Source of the DNA: Holtermannia corniformis
Taxonomy: Eukaryota; Basidiomycota; Tremellomycetes; Holtermanniales
Assembly: GCA_001599935.1 (NCBI GenBank)
Contig: BCIJ01000010.1
Location: 139,081 to 203,080, forward strand
DNA length: 64,000 bases
Direction: 5' to 3'
Shown piece after piece: positions 35,184-50,600 of the stretch. The position numbers and the translations under genes were made by a program. How positions within the stretch are numbered: position 1 is the first letter of the stretch; every line of letters begins with the position of its first letter. Under the pieces are notes generated by a model, which was not told where the DNA came from, did no database searches, and saw only the letters and a list, made by a program, of their open reading frames with translations.

Positions 35184-37169
35184 CTACAAGCCCTTGTCAT
35201 TGCCCTCGAATCCCGTCGCGCTCGCGCCGCCGCCGTTGACGGTGAAAGAATCAAGCGCACGGTCAGCATACTGCTTGGCCACCCACTCGTCCGACGTCGG
35301 GCCGTGAAAGTGGTGGCGGGCATAGAGGAACCAGTCGAGCAGGGAGAGCGTGCCAATGATCCCAAGGACGACAATGGCGTAGTCTGCTAGCCGTTAGCAC
35401 GAATCGCTCACGCTACCCTGGCGACTCACTCATGGTCGCTCCGTCCGGCTCGCTCGTGAGCGGGAACAGCCAGATGACGGTCGCAAACGTCGTCCAGAGC
35501 ACCACGACCGTGTTGGCGACCCAACCAAACTTGCCCAGGCTGAACCATCGACCTTCACCGAGCTTTCTGCCGCTCAGCATCGAGCACACGGTCGGGATCA
35601 GGAAGGACAGGTACGACAGGATGATGGCGCTGCCGACTATCGAGTTGTACGCTGTTGTCGATGCAAGGTAGAGAATACCGACAATGGCGACGGGGATCGA
35701 CGGCAGGATGCTGGCGAGCACTGGAACGTTGAGCCGTGGCGAAATGTGCGAGATCGGGCGGGAAAAGGGAACGGCCTTGTCGCATGCCAGTGACCACAGG
35801 AGCCGGCTGCTGGATTGCAGGCAGGCGTTGCCGGCAACGACAAAGGCCATGATCGTGAACACGAACAACACGGTCGCGCCAACACGGCTCTGCGTCGCTT
35901 GCGCCATGATCTCAAGGAACGGTACGCTTCGCCGGTCAGTGATATTCAACCCAAGCATGAACAACTCACTATGCAAGAGCAACAGCGTCGTAGTCTTGCA
36001 CAGTGTAGAGCAAAGCCAGAGCGGTCGCAAACGCAGTCGCGAACCTGCGGTTCCCGTCAGCCACATTCAAGGTAGTTTGCGGGCCGCTCACGAAGTCAAA
36101 ACGGTGCAGACGAGGCCGATCGGGATGTCCCGCGCCGGCCTCTGCGAGTCTTCGGCCAGATGCGTCGAGCTGTCGAGCCCCAGGTAGCAGTATGCCGGGT
36201 TGATGAGCCCGGTGGAGACGACGACGAACGCGTTCGACCATCCGATGTCGTTGGTGTAGGTGCTCCAGACCGACCTAGCACGGGTCAGCGACGGAACCTT
36301 GTAGTGGAAAGATGGACGCACGCGTGAGGCTGGTAGGATGGCGCACAGGCCACACACGAGATCACGATCGCGAGGAAGACGGTGGTCCCGGCGTAGACTG
36401 TCGGTCGAGTCAGCTGCTGATGATCCGTCTAGGTAACAACTCACTAAAGGCAGTGCCAACCCATGGGACGCGAACAGCCAGCAGGATGTTGTAAAGCGTG
36501 CTGAAAACGAGCATGGCAATGTAAATCAGGAAGACGTGCCACCGCTGGATCACAATGCTTGGGTTCCACAGTTGCGCCAACGACATCATGTACTGGCCGT
36601 GGATCACAAAGACGGTTGCGCTATACGGATTCAGCTTTTGGGGCTGCAAGAGGCGCTGCACCGACCTGATGACCATCCACGCAAAGATGGAGATTGCGCC
36701 TGTTGCAAACGAGATCTGGCGCCGGAACCGAGCAGGCGCGAGAACGCTGGCCCAGACGTACTGATCAATGTCAGCTTGGAACTTTGGCCTGAACGAGGGA
36801 ACGCACTTGACCGCCGGCCGAGGGCATTGCCGAGCTCAGCTCTGCAAGCGTGACGGCAATGAACATGTTCATGATCCCGGTGAACATCAAGCCATAGATG
36901 ATGGTCGCCGCGCCGCCTTGACTGAGACCGACGATCAATGTGCCTGAGAAAAAAAGATCAGTATGCTCCGATGATAGGTTTGCACCACACCAACCCGAGA
37001 TGCCACTCCAGCCGTTTGAGACCTCCAATCCAAACCCGATGATTGCAAGCATGGACATGTTCTTCTTGAGCCTGCCCTCGTGCTCGATCGGGGCCACGGC
37101 CGCGGCCTCGACGACCCTACTGACGGCCGCGTCGGAATCGACATTACTCGTCGTCTTCTTCATGTCCAT
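35184..37169 (-). CDS. APC-family amine/GABA-type permease
   Basis: A membrane carrier of the yeast UGA4/HNM1 type (GABA, choline, polyamine or amino acid). Cytosolic N-terminus MDMKKTTSNVDSDAAVSRVV, then NMSMLAIIGFGLEVSNGWSG, GTLIVGLSQGGAATIIYGLM, NMFIAVTLAELSSAMPSAGG and Q. This set of motifs is typical of that subfamily. Further segments: VFLIYIAMLVFSTLYNILLA, AFVVVSTGLINPAYCYLGLD, HLAEDSQRPARDIPIGLV, ATVLFVFTIMAFVVAGNACL, SSRLLWSLACDKAVPF, YNSIVGSAIILSYLSFLIPT, VVVLWTTFATVIWLFPLTSE, and YAIVVLGIIGTLSLLDWFLY then ARHHFHGP near the end. Many short introns. A second in-frame ATG lies two codons in. It is divergent from the agmatinase (264-bp gap), suggesting shared control; the substrate is inferred from this. 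Confidence 0.85.
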
Positions 37170-37433: not shown

Positions 37434-39119
37434 ATGAGGACACAGGCATTGGCAGTTGCAGCCTTGGGCGTGGTAGCCGGCGTCGTGGCGCACGGCGACC
37501 ACGGTGCGACAGACGACGAGTGGGGTGAGTCCATGTCAGACGTACGGGAGTCGCCAGACCAGAGGGGCTGTTGCGAGCACCGACACATTGTGCAAACTCT
37601 TTCTGCTACAGTGCTGACCGAGTCTAGGACTCAAGTACGGCCCGCTGCCCGACCTCTCGTTTTCCGGCATCAACACCTTTGCCCACCTGGACCACCACAA
37701 GTGCCTCAACACGCAGAAACCGTTCGACGTCGCCATCCTCGGTGTACCCTTTGACGTGAGCTCTCACCAAACGTTGCGATCGTACGCACCTTATCACCGC
37801 ACAGACGGCCGTGTCCTTTCGCCCTGGCGCTCGCTTTGGCCCCCATGCGATCCGCTCTGGCTCCCGTCGGCACGCTCCATCACGAGGCTACTCCATCCCA
37901 TGGGGCTTCAACCCGTTCATCGAGGGATACAACATTGTGCGTGAGCCGGGCAACAGAATGCAGGGCTGACGTGGGCTGTCTAGGTCGATTGCGGCGATAT
38001 CCCAGTTTCACCCTACGACCAGGCCCTCGCGCTCGACCAGATCAGGACAGCCTACAACACCCTGCTTGCCCGACCGGTCGCCACAGAGTATGCTGAAGAG
38101 CACGGCGGGACAAAGAAGCTTGCCCTGGACGGCAAGGAGCACGGCAAGATCATCACCCTCGGTGGCGATCATACCGTCTTGCTCCCGATCTTGGGTGCCT
38201 TGAGTGATATCTATGGTATGCCTGCGATGCCATCTACGAAGCCTGACATCCGTAGGTCCCGTCAGTGTCATTCACTTTGACGCCCACTTGGACACCTGGA
38301 ATGGCAACTTTTACGTCGGCGCCTCGACCGATCAGTCCAAGATTGTATGTTCGCGTCAGGCTCATCGACCTCGCTCACACCTCTTCAGACGCACGGCACG
38401 TTCTTCTGGAAGGCCGCAGAGCAGGGCTTCATCACCAACACGTCTTCGATCCACGCTGGGATTCGAACTCGTCTTTCAGTACGTCCATCCCGCTCGGCAA
38501 CCGCACGCACTGACTTGGCGTTAGGGCATTGAAGACTTGCATCACGACGCTGCCGTCGGGTTCGACCTCTTGACAACAGACGACATTGATGATGTCGGTG
38601 CGCAAGGCATCATTGACCGGATCCGAGCTAGGATCGGAGACAGGCCGGTGTAGTATGTCGAGCAGTCTGGTCGATGGTCGGGGCTGACACTGGCAGCCTT
38701 TCCTTTGACATTGACACGATTGATCCCAGCATGGCACCGGCCAGTGAGTTGCGTCGCGCCTCCAACGTGAGGGTGCTAACCAACCACAGCTGGTACCCCT
38801 GAATCGGGCGGCTGGACCATGCGCGAGGTCAAGCGCATCCTCCGCGGTCTGCACGGTCTCAACTTTGTGCGTTGGCTTGCCTTGATGGAATGTCATGGAT
38901 CTGACGTTATCGCAGGTCGGTGCCGACGTCGTCGAGGTTTCACCCGGATACGACCATGCCGAAGTGACTGCCATGGCCGCCGCCGACCTCGTTCAAGAGT
39001 TCCTCGCACTCATGGTCAAGAAGGGCAAGCGGGTGCCATCGATCTCGCGCGGTGTGTTGGCCGAGCCAGTACCGAGCGCTGATGCAGACGCGGTCGCCTC
39101 GGAGCACGACGAGCTGTGA
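37434..39119 (+). CDS. Agmatinase-type ureohydrolase with signal peptide and HDEL
   Basis: Hydrolyses agmatine (or a related guanidino compound) to an amine and urea using two Mn ions. Exon 1 gives a clear signal peptide ([20 protein letters not shown] then [10 protein letters not shown]). After an intron: [40 protein letters not shown] and ARFGPHAIR. Metal-site motifs: [35 protein letters not shown] and [20 protein letters not shown], then ESGGWTMRE and [13 protein letters not shown]. All conserved Asp/His ligands are visible. The protein ends AVASEHDEL, an ER-retention signal of the same type as on the GRP94 gene here, so the enzyme is predicted to be ER-resident rather than secreted. Eight or so short introns. 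Confidence 0.9.
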
Positions 39120-39415
39120 TGAGACGTACAGCATGATGCATTACATAAGTGAATACGACTTCGGCTCATGGTACACTACAGTGTTCACACACATGGCTGC
39201 TTTATACTGCGATCAAGCGCGAAAGGATGTGCAACATGTGCACTCCTTTAGCCAGTGTAAGGTGGATTCATGTCGGAGCTGTCGCAGTGGCGGGCGTGTG
39301 CCGGATCTTAGTTAATGCTTGATTCAACATTGGAGAGCCGTCGGCTCTGCAACAGCGCTATAAAGCGACGCCTCGACCGCGCACTCTCGATACCACCCAA
39401 CCCCACCATCGAGTA
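39120..39415. promoter_or_regulatory. Intergenic with TATA box (39359-39365) of next small gene
   Basis: TATAAAG lies 57 bp before the ATG at 39416. The rest is agmatinase 3' UTR and promoter DNA with no ORF of interest. Confidence 0.5.
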
Positions 39416-39673
39416 ATGTCTACGACCCTCCAAAGAACTTCCACCGTCTCAAAGTGCCCTGCCGCCGAGCCGCCGCACGAGCACACTGTGACTGCGTCAT
39501 TCGAACAAGCAGATGGCGAGATCAATGTCACCTTCAACGATGAGTGCTCGTATCGTAACAATTGGACGGAGAGCCACTCTGCCGAGTCTTGGGCTCGTCG
39601 TGGTACCCGCGTGAGCACAGGCAGCATGCAGCGCGACGAGACGGGTGCCATCATCAAGGAGCGCCAGGTCTGA
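39416..39673 (+). CDS. Small protein with C-x6-H-x-H motif (85 aa)
   Basis: Unknown function. MSTTLQRTSTVSKCPAAEPP then HEHTVTASFEQADGEINVTF, NDECSYRNNWTES and HSAESWARRGTRVS. Cys, six residues, H-E-H, then twenty residues to the next Cys. Exactly the same spacing (C-x6-HxH-x20-C) is found in the gene at 45778-45536, and the first half of the pattern in four more proteins counting that one. The tail (HSAESWARRG) also recalls TEHWETRSGS of the 27457 product, linking the two groups. No signal peptide; a promoter TATA box is present. Confidence 0.6.
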   Translation: MSTTLQRTSTVSKCPAAEPPHEHTVTASFEQADGEINVTFNDECSYRNNWTESHSAESWARRGTRVSTGSMQRDETGAIIKERQV

Positions 39674-40023
39674 CCTGCTAGTCATAGTCATGCAATCGGT
39701 GACAACACCCTGCACATCGCGGCCAGAGGCCGGGTTTGATTGAGCCTCGCAAGGGAGACAAGCGACCCGCTTATCGCAAGTACATGAAAGGGGATGAGCG
39801 CGCGATAGTAGATCTGTCTCGCACCTGTTGCGGCGTACGGTACAGACTGCTTGAATCCCAGATAGCAAGCGATCGGGACCTCTGGACGATGAGATCACCC
39901 GTGTTCTGACGTAGGTACATACCTTTGTGTGCTCGAACCATTCGACCGGTCACGACCGGTCGAGAAGTCGTGTCGCCGTTTCCGCCAGCACGAACGGAAC
40001 CGGACGATCCCCTCTTCACTCGG
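39674..40023. promoter_or_regulatory. Intergenic with tandem CGACCGGTC palindromic words
   Basis: At 39943-39962 the word CGACCGGTC occurs twice, 11 bp apart and separated by one base pair plus the next C. Each copy lies in a palindromic decamer (CGACCGGTCG, perfect for the second copy). They are about 60-80 bp before the TATA box of the gene at 40061 and look like a paired operator. Otherwise nothing. Confidence 0.45.
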
Positions 40024-40030
40024 TATAAAA
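40024..40030 (+). promoter_or_regulatory. TATA box of small C-x6-H-x-H gene
   Basis: TATAAAA, 37 bp before the ATG at 40061, with a short leader ending ctcaccATG. It is the best TATA box in the window. Confidence 0.6.
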
Positions 40031-40060
40031 CCATACGGAACGCATCGCCTGTTTCTCACC

Positions 40061-40297
40061 ATGTCTGCACCAGCTCCTTCGACCTGCACGTGCAATTGCT
40101 GCACTGGCACTTGCAACCCTTCAGAACCGAATCATGTCCACACTCACGCGTCCACCTGGCAGCCCCTGACCAACTTTTCTGGCGGGTTCAACATCTGGCC
40201 TATGCAGAACACTCCGAGTGTGGCCCAGCCTGGACCGAATCAGGTTGCGCAGTTTGCGACGCAGCCTCAAGCCTTTGGAGGTGCGCAACGCCAGTGA
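40061..40297 (+). CDS. Small Cys-rich protein with C-x6-H-x-H motif (78 aa)
   Basis: MSAPAPSTCTCNCCTGTCNP then SEPNHVHTHASTWQPL, FSGGFNIWPMQNTP and a Gln/Pro/Ala tail. Five Cys lie in the first 18 residues; the last is followed by exactly six residues and H-V-H-T-H. The paralogues lack the CTCNCC start, and this one lacks the later Cys, so it is a diverged member. It could bind metal through the Cys/His cluster (inference). TATA box 37 bp upstream and a candidate paired operator before it. Confidence 0.6.
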   Translation: MSAPAPSTCTCNCCTGTCNPSEPNHVHTHASTWQPLTNFSGGFNIWPMQNTPSVAQPGPNQVAQFATQPQAFGGAQRQ

Positions 40298-40391
40298 TTC
40301 GTAGTCGTGCCACGCCATTCGAAAGCCAGACATGATCGTACATGATTTCATGGATCTGCTTCCTGCCCGTCAAGGGTACCACTGTACAGTC

Positions 40392-43300
40392 TCACTCGTC
40401 GTTGCCCTTTTCAAAGTTTGCAATCGCTTGACCAACGGATCCGGGGCGCGCGCCGTCGCGGCGGAACTGGGCGTGTCAGCTGCAGACCATTAGCAAGCGA
40501 CTGACGTACGGCACCAGCGTTGGCCGATCCGTGTTTCTTGTTCGGCTTGTAGTCATTCACGTCAATGTTGCGGTGCACGCGGGGCTCTTCAGCAGCAGTC
40601 AGCACCGGTGAAGATGAGCGTGCGTCATTGCTACCCAAGCTGGCGCTCGCTGTGTGCGACACGACTCGCTGTGGAGGTGGCCGAGGGCCACGCGCACCTA
40701 CGACGTACATCAGCATCGTCTTGTTACCCAGGATTAGAGCACAACTCACCTCTTGGTCCTCGTAGCCGTGATGCCTCGCCCGAACCCGCCCTTGAGAGGG
40801 TCGAAGCACCGGTACCAATCGTCTTGTCGAGCACCGGCGACTCGTTCGTCGTCGAAGCAGATTGAGGCAATGGCACAGACTCCGGGATCGGCCCCGTCGC
40901 CGCCTGCGCTTCCTCTGCAATCGGCGGGTTCTCGGGACTACCGGCTCGCGGAGGGTGTTGCTTGTGATGCTGCAACTCGAGAAGCTCGTGCAGGTCCGCG
41001 CCATCGGTCAAGCTGCTGCGCGAGATGCGCTGGTCGACAATGGCAGTCCGCTTGCGTACAGGCATGACCCGCTCCGATTCGCGCTTCTTGCGCTCGACGA
41101 GGGCAGGGAACACGTCAGAGTAAAGCGACAGCAGGTCGGCGAAGAACAGCGATGCAGTACGATCTTGAATGGTGAGTTCCGACTCGAATTGCGGTCTCAA
41201 GACGGCTGCGCGGGTTCAGCAAGTTGCGCAGGCGCAGGCACGGGACGTACTCCTCCCAAGCGACAAAGCAAGCTTTGTGATGTACACCTCATCCGTCTCC
41301 TCCGACGTCGTGCTCTTGATCAAGCTAGTGACATGTCAGCTCCATCATAGCTTGGAAGGCCTAGGCTCACCCATGCAAGTGACCGACCAAAGCGTCAAGC
41401 ACGTAGAGTTGAATGCTCGGAAGTCGACCGAGGACATTACCGACTTCCTCCGTCTTGTCCGTGCTCTGGTCTGCGCCAACAGTAGGGTACAGCGCCTTGG
41501 CATCCTGCCAACCTTCCCAGCCCATGACGGGTGGGCTCAATTCGAGCAAGAACAACTTCAAGGTGCCCGCAACGATCGGCACGTTGAACTTTTTGATGGC
41601 TTCGAGCAGGTCATCCGCACTGCGTGATGGATCGTTGAGCTGTGCGCGAAGCTGGTGTGTTTCGACCAGAGGGACTTCATAGATCCAACTCCGGCGTCGT
41701 TCTACTCATCAGCATCAGCCTGACAGTGTGGCTATGCAATTCGCGCGCTCACCTTCGTCCGGCAGTTCTCCGTACATCTCATCAAGAGCCTTGAACAGGG
41801 CAACGAGCACATCAGGGATCGCGCCCTTGGGCCGTTGCGGCGCATTGACAAGGGTCTTCCACCCCTGTTCTCCAGACCACTTGCGCAAGTCGATCCCAAA
41901 CGCCACTTCAGGGTGCTCCTGCTCCAAGCTCTCGTAGATGTGCGGGTGGGGACGCTGGACCAGTCAGTCCTTGTAGGCGGTACGCAAGGTTTGCTACCCA
42001 CGAATGGCCCTGTGCGGTTTCCCTCGATCAAAGCTACGATGCTACATGTGTCAGCGGATATACTGGAACGTGCAAGGACGTACTCGGCATCGGGATGGTA
42101 AGCCTCAATCGACAATCCAGTGCTCTTCTGCAGCTCAGCCAGCTTGGGTGCCAGCTTTGCCAACGCCTCTTCGTACTGCTTCAACACTGCAGACTTTGGT
42201 CAGCTCTACTAAACCACTGCTCCGTTGCACGTACCCGTCTTGACGACGCCTCCACGCTCCTTTTCCCACCGCTCCCAGACCCGAAGTCCCTGCTCGATGC
42301 GTTCTTCGAGCGACAGACGGAGCGATTCGAGCTTTTTGACGCCGTTCCGATATTCATCGTCGGCCTTGTGCGCCTCGCGCCTGGCACGAACGTGGACTGG
42401 TTCATCGGATGACGAGTTGGCGAGCGCCGACGGCAAATACGATCGCAGGAGCGAAGGAAAGTGCGAGTTGCTGGATGAACTCTCGATTGGGTTCTATCCT
42501 AGTCAGGCAGATCCACGATGAGGACAGTACGTACAGAGAGCTTGAGAACATAGTGCGAGTCTGCAGTCGCCTCGAAGCCGCGGCCGACGCCGATCCGGGC
42601 CATCAAGCCCCAGCTCAGGATTTCGGCAGCTGCCTCTTCAGCGCGCTCCCAGTCGCGACCAAAGCCCTCGACATTGTCGACAAGCCAGTCGACAATCTCT
42701 TCTCCCGAGGCCGTGTTGTTGTAAGTTCCCAGAATGGTCGTTTTGGACCGCGTGCGAGGGGCATCCGAGTTGACAGGGGATTCGGCCGAGTAGGGCGGGG
42801 GTGTGGTCAGCAAGTGGTGTTCCAGGTGCTCAAGAAGCGAGCGAAGGGCCGCTTGCGGTAGCGAGAGACCCGAGAGGAGGACAGGCGGCGGCGGTGACGA
42901 TGGCATCGGCGAGCCCGGAATGTTCTTTGGCGGCACGATTGGCAGCGGTGTCGGCATCTCACCGGGGTTGGTCGGCGGCTGAAACGGCTCTTCTCTCCCG
43001 TCATCGTCGTCGTCATCGTCGTCAGGCATTGCAGAGGGAGGCGGCGGCAGACGAGTGATAGATGCCGCACGAAGCTTGGCGCTGATTCGGTCGTTGACGG
43101 TGCCGGACCGGCGGAGGGGCTTGGGCGATGCGGGAACATCCTTGATGGAACCGGACAGAGATGGTTTCTTGGGAGAATGGGTATAGCCGTCGACTGGCGA
43201 CTTGTTCGAGATGGACGGACTGGTAGTTGACGGCGCGAATTTGGCACTGCGCGGTTAGCTTTGGCGACTGGGAGTCTGCCACGTTCGACCTACTCGTCTT

Positions 43301-44050
43301 CGGCGTCATCTGCAGCCCGCGACTTGGCCATATAAGCCTGCTTGAGCTGCGGAACGCTCAGCCGTACGATCATGCATTCGACTCAGCCGACATACCTTGG
43401 CGACATCCGCCGACCCAGTCTCCCATCCCTTCACAGCCCCTTGTTTACCCAACACTTCCTCGCGACCTTTCTTGACCCTCGCTTCATGAGCTTCGCTCCA
43501 AGCTCGGAACGGTGCAAGAACACGGTCCTCGAGTTCTTTGGCAAGTGCTTCATGGGCTTGGCCACGAGCCGATGACGCGCCGGTCAAGGACAGGAGGGTG
43601 TGCTGGAGCGACGCCCCGCCGGAAGAGGTGGCGCTCAACGAGGAGATGGGCGGGTTCTGTAGGGTGTTGGCGAGTTGCCCACTGGCCTTTGCTTGGGACT
43701 GGGCAACACGTCAGCGATGTCACCGAGGGGCGATGTTGAGCACGGACCTGGATGAACGCGATAATGTCCTTGTTCTCGACACATCCCTACGACCTGTTAG
43801 CATGGCCGCACATCGGATAGCACATATTGCAACGCGTGGAGAATACATCGAGTGCAAGTCGGCAGGTGCTAACAGTAGCCGCACTGCTGTAAGAACCCTC
43901 GGCCACTGCGGCCTGCATCCTTTGAGGTGATCCGCCGCATCTCCGGTAACCCACCTTGTCCAGCTGCTTGAACAGCGTCTCCAGGCCTGTGCGGTAGTCT
44001 GACGACCAGAACGAGTTGTGGAATGTCGGCGGAAGGGTGATAGGGGCCAT
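40392..44050 (-). CDS. RGD2-type Rho GTPase-activating protein (F-BAR, DEP, RhoGAP)
   Basis: Cortical regulator of Rho/Cdc42 GTPases. Start at 44050: MAPITLPPTFHNSFWSSDYR then TGLETLFKQLDKV, the FCH/F-BAR entry. More F-BAR helices follow (RVLAPFRAWSEAHEARVKKG, KGWETGSADVAK). After an acidic Pro-rich insert comes a DEP domain (LPQAALRSLLEHLEHHLLTT, GEEIVDWLVDNVEGFGRDWE, MARIGVGRGFEATADSHYVL). More coiled helices follow (LKQYEEALAKLAPKLAELQK). The RhoGAP region has GIDLRKWSGEQGW, AIPDVLVALFKALDEMYGEL, SWIYEVPLVETHQLRAQLND, GTLKLFLLELSPPVM and SIQLYVLDALVGHLH. The tail is Ser/Pro-rich and ends GQAIANFEKGNDE. Yeast Rgd2 has the same domain order. The usual catalytic 'GIFR' reads WIYE here. Confidence 0.8.
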
Positions 44051-44362
44051 GATGGGGGCTGTACACGGCCGAACGCGTCGGGACGGTGCTGAACCTGTGT
44101 GGTTTCGCCGGCTAGACTGTTCTAGGGTGGCTCGAGATGCAGGTGTGCTCTTGCCGGCGCTCTCGAGTGCGTCTTGCTGTCTGGAACAATCTCGAGATGG
44201 TCCAAGAAGCCGTGGGTGGTGGCGAGGATGTTGCAAGCGGGGAAGACGCGAGGCACCCAAGTGGCGTCCTTCTCCGTGGCACTGGGTCACCGCATCGTCG
44301 TAACATCGATCAGGTATAGAGCCTAGATGGTAGACTATTCCGACTGTATATAGTGTAGCAAG
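44051..44362. other. Intergenic upstream of RGD2-like gene
   Basis: About 310 bp: the promoter and 5' UTR of the RGD2-like gene and the 3' UTR of the small gene at 44590-44363. I see no other feature. Confidence 0.45.
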
Positions 44363-44590
44363 CTAAGCATTCTTGCTGTCCGTTGACGAGGCACTGCTGT
44401 CTCCCGTCCCGGTACACGAGGGGGAGGTGATTTGCTTCGACTCTACGACCGTGCCAGCCATTGTACACGTCTCGACCTGTTGGGCCGAGGTGAGATCGGA
44501 TGAATACTTGGCTACAATGTGATGGACATGAGGAGCTGGGTACGTTGAGCAAGATGATTTGAAGCTATCGTATTCCGACCTCGTCGACAT
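44363..44590 (-). CDS. Small protein with C-x6-H-x-H motif (75 aa)
   Basis: MSTRSEYDSFKSSCSTYPAP then HVHHIVAKYSSDLTSAQQVE, TCTMAGTVVESKQITSPSCT and a Ser/Thr tail. Cys, six residues, H-V-H-H, then 18 residues to the next Cys. This is close to the C-x6-HxH-x20-C pattern of the 39416 and 45778 genes. No signal peptide or membrane helix; function unknown. The three-gene run at 44.4-45.8 kb is on one strand. Confidence 0.6.
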   Translation of the reverse strand: MSTRSEYDSFKSSCSTYPAPHVHHIVAKYSSDLTSAQQVETCTMAGTVVESKQITSPSCTGTGDSSASSTDSKNA

Positions 44591-44868
44591 GTCGTGTGAT
44601 GAAGGTGCCTTTTGCGTTTAGTGAACCTGTGTAAGCATCACCATCCACTCTGCTTGCAACACCGAGGTAACAGAAGGCACAGAGCTAGCTCCGCCTAACC
44701 ACAATCTTCAACGGATCAGCAACCCCTTCGTCGTCCTAAAGGAGACGGCTCAGATAAAGCGCCGTTCGCCATCCGTGGGTGGTGAATGCGACATCAGCGC
44801 ATTCCCGCCCAGCCGTAGTGTTTCGAGCATGCTTATACTAGCGCTAGAGTCACTAAGCTAATCAAGTG
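44591..44868. other. Intergenic between small genes
   Basis: Nothing recognised beyond presumed promoter and UTR sequence. Confidence 0.4.
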
Positions 44869-45111
44869 CTACGCGGGTCTATGTGCTTCATCTGTCAGAC
44901 CTCCTGGTGTCTGGAATTGGTGGTCCGCAGGCAGCACAGTCCAGTACGTTGTCTGTTCCATGCCTAGCATGCACACATCACAAACCTGCATCAGAATCAA
45001 AGCCGGCGTCTTGCACGAGTTGGCGGACTGATGGTGTGCGTGAAGGTTTGCAGACTTGGCGCACGTCGTCCACACGACTGTCTGGCTGGCGTCGTATTGT
45101 TGGGTTGCCAT
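44869..45111 (-). CDS. Small protein with C-x6-H-x-H motif (80 aa)
   Basis: MATQQYDASQTVVWTTCAKS then ANLHAHHQSANSCKTPALIL, MQVCDVCMLGMEQTTYW and a polar tail. Again Cys, six residues, H-A-H-H. Later Cys residues form C-D-V-C. A 'gtttgtg' after ILMQ could be a donor, so the C-terminal half could differ. It has no obvious TATA box, unlike several paralogues. Function unknown. Confidence 0.5.
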   Translation of the reverse strand: MATQQYDASQTVVWTTCAKSANLHAHHQSANSCKTPALILMQVCDVCMLGMEQTTYWTVLPADHQFQTPGGLTDEAHRPA

Positions 45112-45535
45112 GATGAGAAGTGGGATGATGCGGTATCAGGCCAGGGCACGAGCGCGGCCCAGCAGGTCGTGCGCTCACAAGTACCAACGCAGCGCTTCGC
45201 CTGGAGAAGGCTTGGTGCGCTGTGAACGGGCTCGTTCACTGGAGCCCTTTGTCTGCGATCTAGTTGTCGTCAGCCCAGCACACACACCCTTGCAAGTACG
45301 GATAGACTCGCAGTGGAGCCCTGTAACATGCATGCCTTCGACCCCTGAGAGAATGAAAGTTATCATTTTGGTTTAATTTGAGATGTCACCGCCTCACAAA
45401 AGCCATCGCGATGCCAACAATGGCAGTCGTGAGGGGAAGCCTATTCCTTTGTTATTCCCTTCCAAGTGGTTAGGATGAGATGCGCAAGAGCAAGCCCTGC
45501 ATCACAACTCAGTGACTCGAGATCGAGTATACAGT
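45112..45535. other. Intergenic between small genes
   Basis: About 420 bp with no supported feature. The frames on both strands are short and mutually overlapping. Confidence 0.4.
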
Positions 45536-45778
45536 CTACTTTTCGCTTTGGCCTGATCCCGCTTGACCTGGCTTCTCGTTGACATTGGTGGCCACATTCC
45601 CATCTGACGACGACGCGGGCGGGGCTTTGGGCCGACTCTTGAGGCTACATACGTCTCTATTGACTGTAATGATGCCGTCGGTACTTGGCGCAGACGTGGT
45701 GTGGAGATGATGTGTGTGGGGCTTAGATGACGCGGGACACTCGGTCGTATACGTGGTGGTAGACGATGGACCAGACAT
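45536..45778 (-). CDS. Small protein with C-x6-H-x-H motif (80 aa)
   Basis: MSGPSSTTTYTTECPASSKP then HTHHLHTTSAPSTDGIITVN, RDVCSLKSRPKAPPASSSDG and a Gly/Gln tail. Cys, six residues, H-T-H-H-L-H, and twenty residues from HTH to the next Cys: identical spacing to the 39416 product, with a similar 'DG-I-x-V' strand before the second Cys. A CATAAAA box (45822-45816) lies about 40 bp upstream. Function unknown. Confidence 0.6.
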   Translation of the reverse strand: MSGPSSTTTYTTECPASSKPHTHHLHTTSAPSTDGIITVNRDVCSLKSRPKAPPASSSDGNVATNVNEKPGQAGSGQSEK

Positions 45779-45815
45779 GGTTGCAATGGATTGAAGTTTG
45801 AAGGTGTATAGCGCC

Positions 45816-45822
45816 TTTTATG
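45816..45822 (-). promoter_or_regulatory. TATA-like box of small C-x6-H-x-H gene
   Basis: CATAAAA on the minus strand, about 38 bp before the ATG at 45778, at the usual spacing for this gene family. Confidence 0.45.
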
Positions 45823-46057
45823 CGCTACGACGCTGCCTGCAAGCGCCTTCGCTGAAGCGCAATCCGCCTTCTGATATGTCGAGGACGCCGACTTCTACTA
45901 GCTAGAAGCCGAGTTTAGGCGCACGGCTGGCAAGGGTGATACTGACAGGTCAGTGTCAATACACTATATATATGTCATTGCGTGATCTACGCCTGATACT
46001 CAAGCGCGATGTCAACTCAAATGACTAGTGCCCGCTCTTGCACTAATGCGGTCAACG

Positions 46058-46463
46058 TCAACCTTGGCAAAGACTTGACAGACTTCCACTCACTGCGGTG
46101 CAGATCCAGTCATTGTCACTGTCGACGTTCTCGCTGTATTCACCGCACACGCCATTGTGCGCCGAATCGTCGCAGGTACAAGAGCGATAGCAATCGTTCG
46201 CGTGCAGGACTTTCGCACCGACGCACTGCGAAACGTTAGCGACGCCACATGGGTCTCGTCGAGAAACATACGCTGTCGCACAGAGTGTCTTCGTTGATCC
46301 AGTCGGCCCCGTTGGTACACGCGCCGTTCATTTCCTCTGGGCCCGAGTGGGCTAGAGTGCAGGGGCAGAGACTGCTACAAGTCAGCGCAGATAGCTCTGG
46401 GTCATCCGCGAGCTTGATCCCTGCTTACGCGATAAAGTCGGACGAGTCGGACGAGTCGGACAT
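46058..46463 (-). CDS. Cys-rich small protein, 11 Cys (101 aa), three exons
   Basis: Not visible as a single ORF. Rebuilt as exon 1 at 46463-46429 (MSDSSDSSDFIA), intron 46428-46375 (gtaagc...ctgacttgtag), exon 2 at 46374-46272 (SLCPCTLAHSGPEEMNGACT, NGADWINEDTLCDS), intron 46271-46226 (gtatgt...cgcag, 46 bp), and exon 3 at 46225-46058 (CVGAKVLHANDCYRSCTCDD, SAHNGVCGEYSENVDSDNDW, ICTAVSGSLSSLCQG). The total is 306 nt in phase. Eleven Cys and an acidic Ser/Asp N-terminus but no signal peptide, so disulfide-rich secretion would need an unconventional route; metal binding inside the cell is the alternative. TATATAAT lies about 62 bp upstream. I do not recognise the family. Confidence 0.65.
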
Positions 46464-46531: not shown

Positions 46532-47052
46532 CCCGGGGGAAGATCGTGACCTAACATATCATTGGACATTCTTCCACTGCAATACCGGACTAAGATTCAG
46601 CACGCATGCGCTGTGCGTAGCTGCCGATCTACGAATGGCAACAGCGCCCTGATCAATGCATACTAAAGGTAAGTTTACTTCCTTACAGAAGTTGTAAAGA
46701 TGAACTGACATGATTCGATGAGCTCGTAGACTTGCGCGGTATCATTCGCGGCCTCCACAAAGGTGATACACGTCGACATCGGTCATGTCCTTTGGGATGT
46801 CGTGAAGACGCGCACGCAGGTCCGACTCCGCATAGTAAAGGTCGACGATAGGTCAGTCCAAAGTAAATCCGGAAAAGACAGTGATAACTGATGAGGAAAG
46901 CTTGTCCCACGATCCAACATGGAAGATGATTGACAGCGAGGTGGCTGAGAAAAGGTATGCTAGACCGATACCGCCAACAGCGCGCCTTCAGGGTGCGATC
47001 GTCAAGAAAGGTGCAAACACGCCAATCAAGCCTCCGGGAATCCGCACAAAAA
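46532..47052. other. Intergenic before the transposon region
   Basis: About 520 bp with no supported gene. The plus-strand frames from 46881 run into repeat DNA and are not called. Confidence 0.4.
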
Positions 47053-47580
47053 ATGTGGCGCGGATATCCTTTCGAGCATCCTTATCCTCGAGAGGGATAT
47101 CCTCGCTCTGCACAGACATCCTTATCCGTATCCGCATCCTCAAGGATCATGTGTCGCGGATATCCCTTCCGCGCGTCTATGTCATGATCCCGCCTGGATC
47201 CTGTCAGGCTCCGGCCGGCCGGTCCGATCGGCCGCAACCGGCTTCGCTCATTGGATCAGCTCGCACCGCGCAACGGTCGTAGGAACGATCGGGACTGCGC
47301 AAGCTGCGCACAGGAACTACTGGAAGCGGAAGGAATCGGTCGGGTCGACGTCGGTGTCGACGACAGTGACGACGTCGACGACGTCGTCAACGCGCGCGCA
47401 ATCCCGAAGGCCACAGGGTATAAGAGAAGGGGCTTTGGCTGTTGTAGTTCTTCATCTGGTCTTACTTCTCATGCACTCCTGAACCACGGGTAGCTGCCGA
47501 GTCCTCCAGAGCTCACTCTTGACAGTCTAAGGATACAAGGATATGCGCGGATATCCTTGGATCCGCGTATCCTTGAACGC
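47053..47580. repeat. Downstream flank of hAT-like element: GGATATCC/CCGCGG repeat blocks
   Basis: Two blocks (about 47056-47165 and 47528-47578) are built of ggatatcc, ggatccgcg and atccttatcc words. Between them are ggccggccggtccgatcggcc (about 47213-47235) and a gtcgacg-rich stretch (47340-47395). The same words fill the introns of the transposase-like gene and its upstream flank, so I take this as element-associated DNA. I could not fix terminal inverted repeats or a target-site duplication. Confidence 0.55.
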
Positions 47581-47676
47581 TGATTTCGACCCGAGCAGCA
47601 ACAACTTGCGTCTGACTAAAGCTCTGCCGCTGCAATGGATACAGTAGTTTATGCATACAACTACACGTCCATCCAC

Positions 47677-50600
47677 TCACTCAGGCTCTGGAGATTCTGC
47701 CCTGATACTCCCAGACGCCGTCGCTTGGCTGATCGACCGTGTCCGCTGTCGCTGAGCCTCGAACTTGTGCCAGTCGTCCTCTGACAGCAAGCCCTTCTTC
47801 GACCACGAGCCCAGACACATGAGGGCTCGAATCGTCTCGCGCTTGAGCCTGTGGCGGCGGTACGAGACGGTCAAGCCGCCCATCGAGAATGCCCGTTCGG
47901 GTTCGACAGAGGTCGCTGCAGATGTCAGAGACGGCTGCAGACGGCGAGAAACACACCTGGAGCCGACAAGACGTCGAGAGCCAGCTGCGCCATGCCGTTT
48001 CGATGCCAGAGCGACCCTTCGGGAGCCTCCCGCGTCCACCACTCGATGGGGTCGACCAGCGACGTCCCTTCGACCGAGACACACTCGCCATGGATCCAGG
48101 CAGACACGGGATCGAGTAGAGGGTCACTGGTTCCCGCTGCTTGAGGCGGCTTGAGCAGTGTTGGGACCTGGGGTAGAAATCGACCGCGGAAATCGAGGAT
48201 ATCCGCGGATACACGCGGATACGCGCGGATTTGGAGGGATTTGAGCGGATACGCCGTTTGTGGGTTTGTTTGATGTTTGGAAGAGGTAAATCTTGGTCAG
48301 CGCAGCACGTAACAATCAGGCTAGTCATGTGGACGAACCTTGGCGGTGGATCTTGCCTGTGACTGCGGGACGGGCTCAGCCGGTTGGTAAAGCTTGTACA
48401 AGTCCCGGAGCGCGCGGACAGCCCCGTCTTTCCACTCTGTCTCCCACTCTTGCTTCTCCAGGTAAGCCATGCGCAGAGACGGGTGCAGCACTGCATCATG
48501 TCAGCCTGAAAGATCATTTACGGCTGATTTTGAGAAACTCACGCATGGCGACGCGATATAGCACGGATTTGTCGGTCTTCGCATAGTACTTGTTCAGAGT
48601 GAGCAGTGCCATGCGAGCGCCAATGCGTATCGAAGTCGGATGGCCATTGGCTTGAGCGATTGCGGCGAAATGACCCGAGAACTGATCAATCCAGGGAACG
48701 ACCGTGGCNACCGACGCTCGCATCGTGAGCGTGCCGGCGGCTGACTGGAAGATGTCGACAAGTTCCGTGCAAAACTAATGCAAGTCAAAGTCAGCGAAGA
48801 CCAAAAGGATATCCACGGATCCAAGGATATCCGCGATATCCTTGGATATCCTTGATGTGACTCACTGCGAGCGTGGGCGCCAGGTGCTCCAGGATCGTGA
48901 AGTCGAGGTCGGTCAAGCGAATGGCATCGGTGAAGAGCGATTTGCCTTCGAGCGACGCAACCAGCGGCATCGCGTAGAAGTGCTCGCTGCGTATATGAGC
49001 CATGATGTAAGCTTGCGCGCGCAGACTTACATAACAAGGCGGAAATGCAGGCAGTCTTGCAGCATCTCGCCCGTCGANTTCCATCGCGTGATGACATCAC
49101 GCTTGATGAGGCGTGATCCGATCGAGCCGTCGACTTTCTTGGTCGCTATGCAGGCATCGATAGCCTCGAACCAGGCCTTGCGATACCTGGGACCCAGCGC
49201 CATCGTCTTGGCCAGTACACGAGCCTTGAAGAAGCGTCAATCATCTAAAGCCGATCAAGGATCCAAAAGGATCCGCGGATATCCGCACTCACTTTCAGGA
49301 TCAACCTGCGAGCTGCATGCAGCTCGGAGTCCTTCAACCTGTCGAAGAGAAGGTCCCATGATGGCAGGACGTGGTAATTGCCGACCGAGATGTCATGGTT
49401 CTGCAGAACGGGCATGATGGCTTGGTGATCAAGACGCGCCTGTTCCCATGATGCCGCAGTTTTGAGCTCTTCCATGGCCTCGACCTCGTCAGGCGCGTCG
49501 TCTTNGAGCTGCTGCCGCTCGGCAGCAGTCATCTCAGCNGCCTGGGCGGAATAGGCGTCGCGGAGATGCAAGATCTCCTCGGTTGTTGGCTCAGACTCGC
49601 CGGCAGAGAGCCGAGAGCCTTCGACAGCCATCGCCTGTAGTTCTGCCATGTCGGCTTTGGACGTGAAGGGCGTGAGGAAGGCCTGCGCAATGTTTGATGA
49701 GTAAAGTANGATTCGCGGATCTCGCGGATACTGACTTTGACGACGAGGTTGAGAGTATGCGCGAAGCAGCGCACCCGATGAGTCTTGCCCTTGAAGAGGG
49801 GAAGTCCCATGCCGCCGAGACGTTGGCAAAGCTTGCCGTTGACTGAGTGATTGTCGCCNACNAACGTGAAAAGCTAAACCAGGGATCAGGGATATCCGCG
49901 GNATCCGTGATGATCCTTGCTCACGTGATCTTTCAAGTTNGCCTCTTTGAGGGACTCGTACACCAATTCNGCCAGTCGGTCGCCCGTATGAGCCGAGTCA
50001 TCACTGCAGAGCACGTCAGCGGCGTTCAAGAGCGCGCATATCACGTACTAGATGAAGTCGGTCACTGCCGACTCGATGACAGACTTGCCAGGCTCGCGAT
50101 GCACCCAGCTGGCGACCACTCCNACGAAGCTGGCATGATTGCCTGATGTCCAGCCATCGACGGCCAAGTGCAGGCCACGATTGACCCGTTCACGGATCTT
50201 GGCCATCACGATGGGTCTGACGAAGTGGAAAAACTCTACTGTCAACGCAGACAGGTTCGCGGGAGAGGGCGGACGAGGAATGAGGGGGCTGATGGACATT
50301 ATANGTTGTTGGATCTGAAACTACATCAGTATCCGTGCCGATCCGCGCCGATCCGCGGTCGACAGATCATGTGAAGACTCACGCAATCGTCTTTGACAAG
50401 ATTAAAAGGCCTGTTGTGCTTGGCGAAGCTTGTAATGAGGATAAAGAGGAGTTGGGAGCGGTTCATCGAACGCGGACGGTCGGNGGGGACGAGTTGAGCA
50501 CNGTCGGCGTCGATAGCCCTGCCCTTGCACCTGTCGAAGTGCTTTCGGACCTGGCCGCCAGACATGCCCTCGGTGATGTGCCGAATGATGATTGCGGGGC

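Follow-up and report, generated by a model that had tools for sequence, protein, structure and literature searches.

Small fungal proteins with a shared C-x6-H-x-H motif and a putative Cys/His metal site

Introduction

Zinc fingers of the C2H2, CCHC and related kinds hold four Cys/His ligands on a small domain that contains a hairpin. Cupins carry a His-x-His metal site on a strand; their motif, G(X)5HXH(X)3-4E(X)6G, is accompanied by a second motif. Metallothioneins are described as cysteine-rich.

We analyzed a 64 kb stretch of DNA from a basidiomycete fungus (the window), in which five short ORFs carry a C-x6-H-x-H motif. Two relatives on another contig, C23, bring the number of proteins under comparison to seven. 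Like the zinc fingers, the family has four putative ligands, Cys and His, on a small domain with a predicted hairpin. However, its ligand order is C-x6-H-x-H-x20-C, and no zinc-finger model of Pfam or NCBIfam matched it; to our knowledge, no zinc finger has such an order. Like the cupins, the family places a His-x-His on a strand, here a predicted one. In contrast to the cupins, a Cys replaces the leading Gly and lies one residue farther, and the proteins have about 80 residues; read directly, the family sequences do not fit the cupin motif, and the second one was nowhere seen.

The likeness to fungal metallothioneins is of another kind. The proteins are small and probably intracellular, their Cys residues are likely metal ligands, the genes lie in groups, and the protein of the ORF at 40061 begins Cys-dense (CTCNCCTGTC). 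The difference is that, along with conserved His, each protein of 75-130 residues has 2 to 5 Cys, and none of the seven is cysteine-rich as metallothioneins are. The family perhaps works like a metallothionein while not being one.

Our leading reading of these sequences and of the predicted structures is a lineage-restricted, fast-diverging family in which the Cys, the His-x-His and the second Cys would form one mononuclear metal site, with zinc the most likely metal and copper the second. We give this reading an even chance. Orphan small genes mostly stay without a function, and a fixed pattern of four residues offers a direct handle on this one.

Five short ORFs share the motif more often than shuffled DNA allows

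The first-pass annotation had described five ORFs of 75-85 aa with a C-x6-H-x-H motif in this part of the window. All five are present, at 39416, 40061, 44590, 45111 and 45778, with the motif Cys at residue 14, 18, 14, 17 and 14, respectively, and the motif ending in HEHT, HVHT, HVHH, HAHH and HTHH in the same order, as had been read. The 39416 ORF (39416..39673, plus strand, 85 aa) has C14-x6-H21-E-H23-T followed by x20 to C44, and it is the member with the best support. The 40061 ORF (40061..40297, plus strand, 78 aa) has C18-x6-HVHT and four further Cys upstream of the motif; it is without a later Cys, and its membership is unproven. On the minus strand lie a likely member at 44590 (44363..44590, 75 aa; C14-x6-HVHH, x18 to ETC) and two members, 45111 (44869..45111, 80 aa; C17-x6-HAHH, x20 to DVC) and 45778 (45536..45778, 80 aa; C14-x6-HTHH, x20 to DVC).

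For 39416 and 45778, the spacing of 20 residues to a second Cys and the D-G-[EI]-I-x-V strand between had also been noted, and both are confirmed. The second-Cys spacing extends beyond these two, to 45111 (also x20) and 44590 (x18). The refined core, C-x6-H-x-H-[HT]-x(18-21)-C with [DE]-x-C at its end, is found in six of the seven proteins, 40061 being the exception. The number of Cys per length is 2/85 in 39416, 5/78 in 40061, 3/75 in 44590, 4/80 in 45111 and 2/80 in 45778, and 5/88 and 3/130 in the C23 relatives C23a and C23b. His-x-His is kept in all seven proteins, 40061 included; as the seven were partly collected via the motif, its invariance is independent evidence for the C23 pair only.

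One alternative is that the motif clusters by chance and that the ORFs are not genes at all; the region was, after all, chosen by its motif. Scanning the six frames of the window, we found nine stop-free occurrences of C-x6-H-x-H, five of them being the ORFs. Requiring an ATG ORF 60-100 aa long, with its motif Cys no later than residue 26, left five in the 39200-46000 region and five in the whole window. Among 1500 dinucleotide-preserving shuffles of 39200-46000, 1473 had no such ORF, 26 had one and one had two. This is a mean of 0.019 against the observed five, a figure that flatters the observation, as the ORF filter was set post hoc, and that still leaves a margin of more than two orders of magnitude. 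The earlier claim that the pattern is hard to explain by chance holds for 39200-46000.

We then widened the count to 264 kb, comprising contigs C10 and C23, of which 36.7 kb is N. There, the motif Cys falls in the first 61 residues of nine ATG ORFs with lengths of 45-180 aa: the five window ORFs, the two C23 relatives, and two more in the window, at 36768 (+) and 17666 (-). These last two were judged chance because neither has any other support. Relaxing the pattern to C-x(5-7)-H-x-H-x(16-24)-C, with every frame allowed and no ATG needed, gives 16 matches in the 264 kb, six of which are family members. Such loose versions elsewhere are a point for chance; the loose pattern is not rare, and therefore the pattern by itself is insufficient for calling members.

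Relatives on another contig are found without the motif

Searching the genome that contains the window (20.2 Mb, 55 contigs) with the 39416 protein, and making no use of the motif, we obtained two matches, C23:254605-254853 (-) with an E value of 7e-11 and 37% identity, and C23:253649-253885 (-) with an E value of 6e-10 and 40% identity. The two ORFs, C23a (88 aa) and C23b (130 aa), lie in tandem on the same strand with about 0.6 kb between them. In both, C-P-x5-H-x-H-T is followed by another Cys, after x20 in C23a and x21 in C23b, and both have an extra Cys next to the site (CPCCVRYHDH in C23a and CPKLRCNHEH in C23b). That the same motif turns up in relatives from a motif-free search speaks against chance. 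Genome searches with C23a or C23b returned the same three loci, and one of them added a frame on contig C29.

The C29 frame (C29:181711-181818) contains C-x6-H-x-H and, after it, a further Cys. Its resemblance to C23a is weak (E 0.067), and we judged it to be chance despite its striking spacing. It runs for 36 residues from stop to stop with no Met, and it overlies what by eye are exons of a different gene in a different frame. Used as a query, it retrieved itself and C23a (E 0.025), nothing else. In the neighborhood of the C23 pair, a minus-strand ORF at C23:264202 ends in a Cys/His-rich tail, GCGHDHTHPAVATTSKKTGCGDANCKDAACHQ, that includes C-H-D-H-T-H.

Aligning 39416, C23a and C23b (the latter from its second Met), we find 23 invariant columns, which, numbered as in 39416, include C14, P15, H21, H23, T24, V25, D42, C44, W50, E52, H54, W59, R62 and G69. 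The three proteins have in common a C-terminal part, W-x-E-x-H[ST]-x2-W-x2-R (W-x-E-x-H-x3-4-W), and a G-x-[LM]. A storage protein for metal would not need such a part, and this favors another view of a real family, that its function lies elsewhere, for example in RNA or protein binding or as a regulator, with Cys and His as a mere structural zinc site. We regard this as rather unlikely. The C-terminal part is absent from 45778, in which the Cys/His pattern persists, and in the profile alignment it is not evident in 44590 or 45111. What persists through the divergence is the Cys, the His-x-His and the second Cys.

Profiles retrieve members from either branch

We built a profile from 39416, C23a and C23b and used it to rank 1088 ATG ORFs in the 264 kb that are 45-160 aa long, with 2000 residue shuffles of each protein as the control. 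The first ORF after the profile's own three was 45778 (rank 4 of 1088, 14.9 bits, E 0.0013), followed by 45111 (rank 5, 13.2 bits, E 0.0043); for neither did any of the 2000 shuffles score as well, and the next ORF came only at E 0.54. In the other direction, a profile built on 45778, 44590 and 45111 ranked 39416 fourth of 1088 (0 of 2000 shuffles as good), C23a fifth (2 of 2000) and C23b seventh (12 of 2000). For 44590, the three-member profile gave rank 19, with 129 of 2000 shuffles as good, and a five-member profile gave rank 6 of 1088, with 16 of 2000. None of four profiles retrieved 40061, whose ranks among the 1088 were 68, 33, 124 and 108, with 173, 99, 603 and 442 of the 2000 shuffles scoring as well.

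Genome searches with one protein at a time gave partial agreement. The 45778 protein matched 39416 at E 0.04 in the genome, and 44590, 45111 and 40061, each searched alone against the 20.2 Mb, matched no other family member. A match of 44590 on C1 (E 0.06) and one of 45111 on C20 (E 0.9) were discarded, as the exact motif is missing in the matched frame.

We also scored codon usage with codon odds derived from seven ORFs of the window with a Pfam match exceeding the cut-off. The annotated frame is the best of six in six of the seven family ORFs, in 44590 only just; in 40061 it is not. This, too, goes against the view that the ORFs are not genes. Measured against 140 window ATG ORFs with lengths of 70-130 aa, the percentile is about 95 for 39416 and the C23 pair and 84 for 44590, followed by 45111 (74), 45778 (59) and 40061 (34). 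The scores of the last three are ordinary, which favors chance, and codon usage by itself would not call them.

Taken with the similarity of 39416, 45111 and 45778 to the C23 pair, which contradicts chance for these three, and with the retrieval by profiles under shuffle controls, we consider a chance origin very improbable. The family is supported as real because relatives on another contig were found without the motif and because the profiles beat the shuffles. The first-pass annotation had thus rightly preferred a family to chance, and its count of five members goes too far: membership is well supported by sequence for 39416, 45111 and 45778, likely for 44590, and unproven for 40061, for which the motif and the position are what speaks.

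A predicted hairpin could bring the four residues together

AlphaFold models were of low confidence. The model from all five window proteins has a mean pLDDT of 53 and strands at 21-32, 35-46 and 49-61, and that from 39416 and 45778 only has a mean pLDDT of 50 and strands at 21-32, 35-47, 59-73 and 79-84. The two concur on a first hairpin, which begins with the His-x-His and turns at D33-G34, and diverge past it. Given a regular hairpin, residues 23 and 44 would be opposite each other. By a crude measure, none of the seven proteins has a strongly hydrophobic N-terminal stretch, the best 11-residue mean being 1.05.

Fold, metal binding, cell location and function, as we infer them from sequence and models, would come together as follows. 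Small (75-130 aa), probably soluble and intracellular proteins would be made from uninterrupted ORFs that are grouped at two places of the genome. In a beta hairpin, the first strand would open with the His-x-His and lead to a D-G or G-G turn; the second Cys would lie late in the second strand, across from the second His, and the first Cys would reach the site from a flexible N-terminus. The metal site would hold the mini-domain together, or the metal might be buffered or carried by it. A mononuclear zinc site is the simplest reading because four suitable ligands appear to converge on a small hairpin, as judged from the sequences and weak models. The first-pass suggestion of metal binding thereby agrees with the conserved residues and with the two low-confidence models. 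Against the metal-site reading, we count the low confidence of the models and their divergence past the first hairpin, the failure to match any metal-site family in Pfam or NCBIfam, the want of a metal transporter or regulator among 30 other window proteins run against Pfam, the missing second Cys of 40061, the upstream stretches with no common 9-base word, the ordinary codon scores of 45778, 45111 and 40061, and the chance frame on C29, where an identical Cys-His spacing and a further Cys recur.

Two conserved cysteines might alternatively make a regulated disulfide or a reactive thiol pair, with the His tuning the thiol or merely at the surface. Six of the seven proteins have both Cys, the core cysteines are the sole two in 39416 and 45778, and the predicted hairpin could, at its low confidence, bring the two together. 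However, conservation is no less strict for the His-x-His than for the Cys, even in 40061 with no second Cys, and a disulfide does not need a spacing from Cys to His-x-His that is fixed at six. A redox role of this kind seems to us distinctly unlikely.

Returning to the metal site, the sequences also allow a bolder version, which we put forward tentatively and hold to be possible, if on the doubtful side. The family would be a new, lineage-restricted class of mini-metalloprotein, maintained in groups of genes, in which nearly everything has diverged but the site with its fixed spacing. Its members would buffer or carry zinc or copper at a single site, replacing metallothioneins or working beside them. 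If metal is bound, a single-site family would be added to the known ways in which fungi handle metal, and a metal site alone would be able to unite a fast-evolving family.

No match to a known family in the collections searched

None of the seven proteins matched a Pfam family above the cut-off, the zinc-finger and cupin models included. At an E value of 0.1, NCBIfam, a library built for prokaryotes, had no match for the family proteins, and the PDB sequences yielded no convincing relative. Matches in Pfam or the PDB to AHSA1, RseA_N, the TIP-associating protein, neutrophil-activating protein A, chitodextrinase and PNPase were rejected because they fell short of the Pfam cut-offs or had E values of at least 0.25.

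In a set of 5.8 billion proteins, 39416 alone found no homologue, and the three-protein alignment gave 44 candidates, none at E <= 10. We checked the coverage of this set with the folylpolyglutamate synthase ORF of the window, which has 7941 relatives there. Among the best 120 of these, one JGI metagenome protein is 64% identical and the other 119 are at 40-53%; those named among the best 120 are basidiomycetes, e.g. Rhizoctonia, Calocera, Mycena and Tremella. Coverage of the lineage is thin, and the family's apparent restriction to it may in part be a sampling gap. Peptide patterns fitted 16 stretches in viral contigs, a collection unlikely to hold a fungal family, and 19 stretches in a set with one genome per prokaryote species, where a fungal family is hardly expected; no relative was among either.

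Three distinct spellings of the motif are absent from 5.39 million open texts, and the accessible parts of the literature on small, orphan or metal-binding fungal proteins contain no such family. The novelty that had been suggested for the family is borne out in the collections searched, in which its lineage is thinly covered.

Genomic surroundings of the cluster

On one flank, the cluster is preceded by an exon of an amino-acid permease (35416-36066, minus strand) and by exons of the arginase family at 38204-38524 (just below the cut-off) and 38895-39116 (plus strand). A DEP-domain gene (42502-43254, minus strand) splits the cluster, and a hAT-transposase remnant (47680-48123, minus strand) lies on the other flank. 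Of the window's further proteins, 30 were run against Pfam, the spliced model at 46462 among them, and none matched a transporter or regulator of metals.

Upstream of the ORFs, TATAAA occurs at 39359..39364 (plus strand), 57 bases before the ATG of 39416, and at 40024..40029 (plus strand), 37 bases before the ATG of 40061, both as matches to the consensus only; an ATAAAA was seen by eye about 40 bases upstream of 45778. Comparing eight upstream stretches of 300 bases, we found no 9-base word common to at least three of them and one 8-base word in three. At 39943-39962, upstream of the 40061 ORF, CGACCGGTC stands twice with one base between the copies, each of which contains the palindrome GACCGGTC. 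Judged by its sequence, the palindrome might be the binding site of a regulator.

Adjoining the cluster at 46090-46462 (minus strand) is a Cys-rich gene of about 101 aa, modeled by eye with two short introns and with a TATA-like string 69 bases upstream of its ATG. It was considered as a relative of the family and rejected, since a genome search returned its own exons only and it has no Pfam family. Beyond it, the 47000-50100 region, by the hAT-transposase remains, contains short degenerate repeats that have GGATATCC-like cores and give RGYPRIS-type peptides in several frames.
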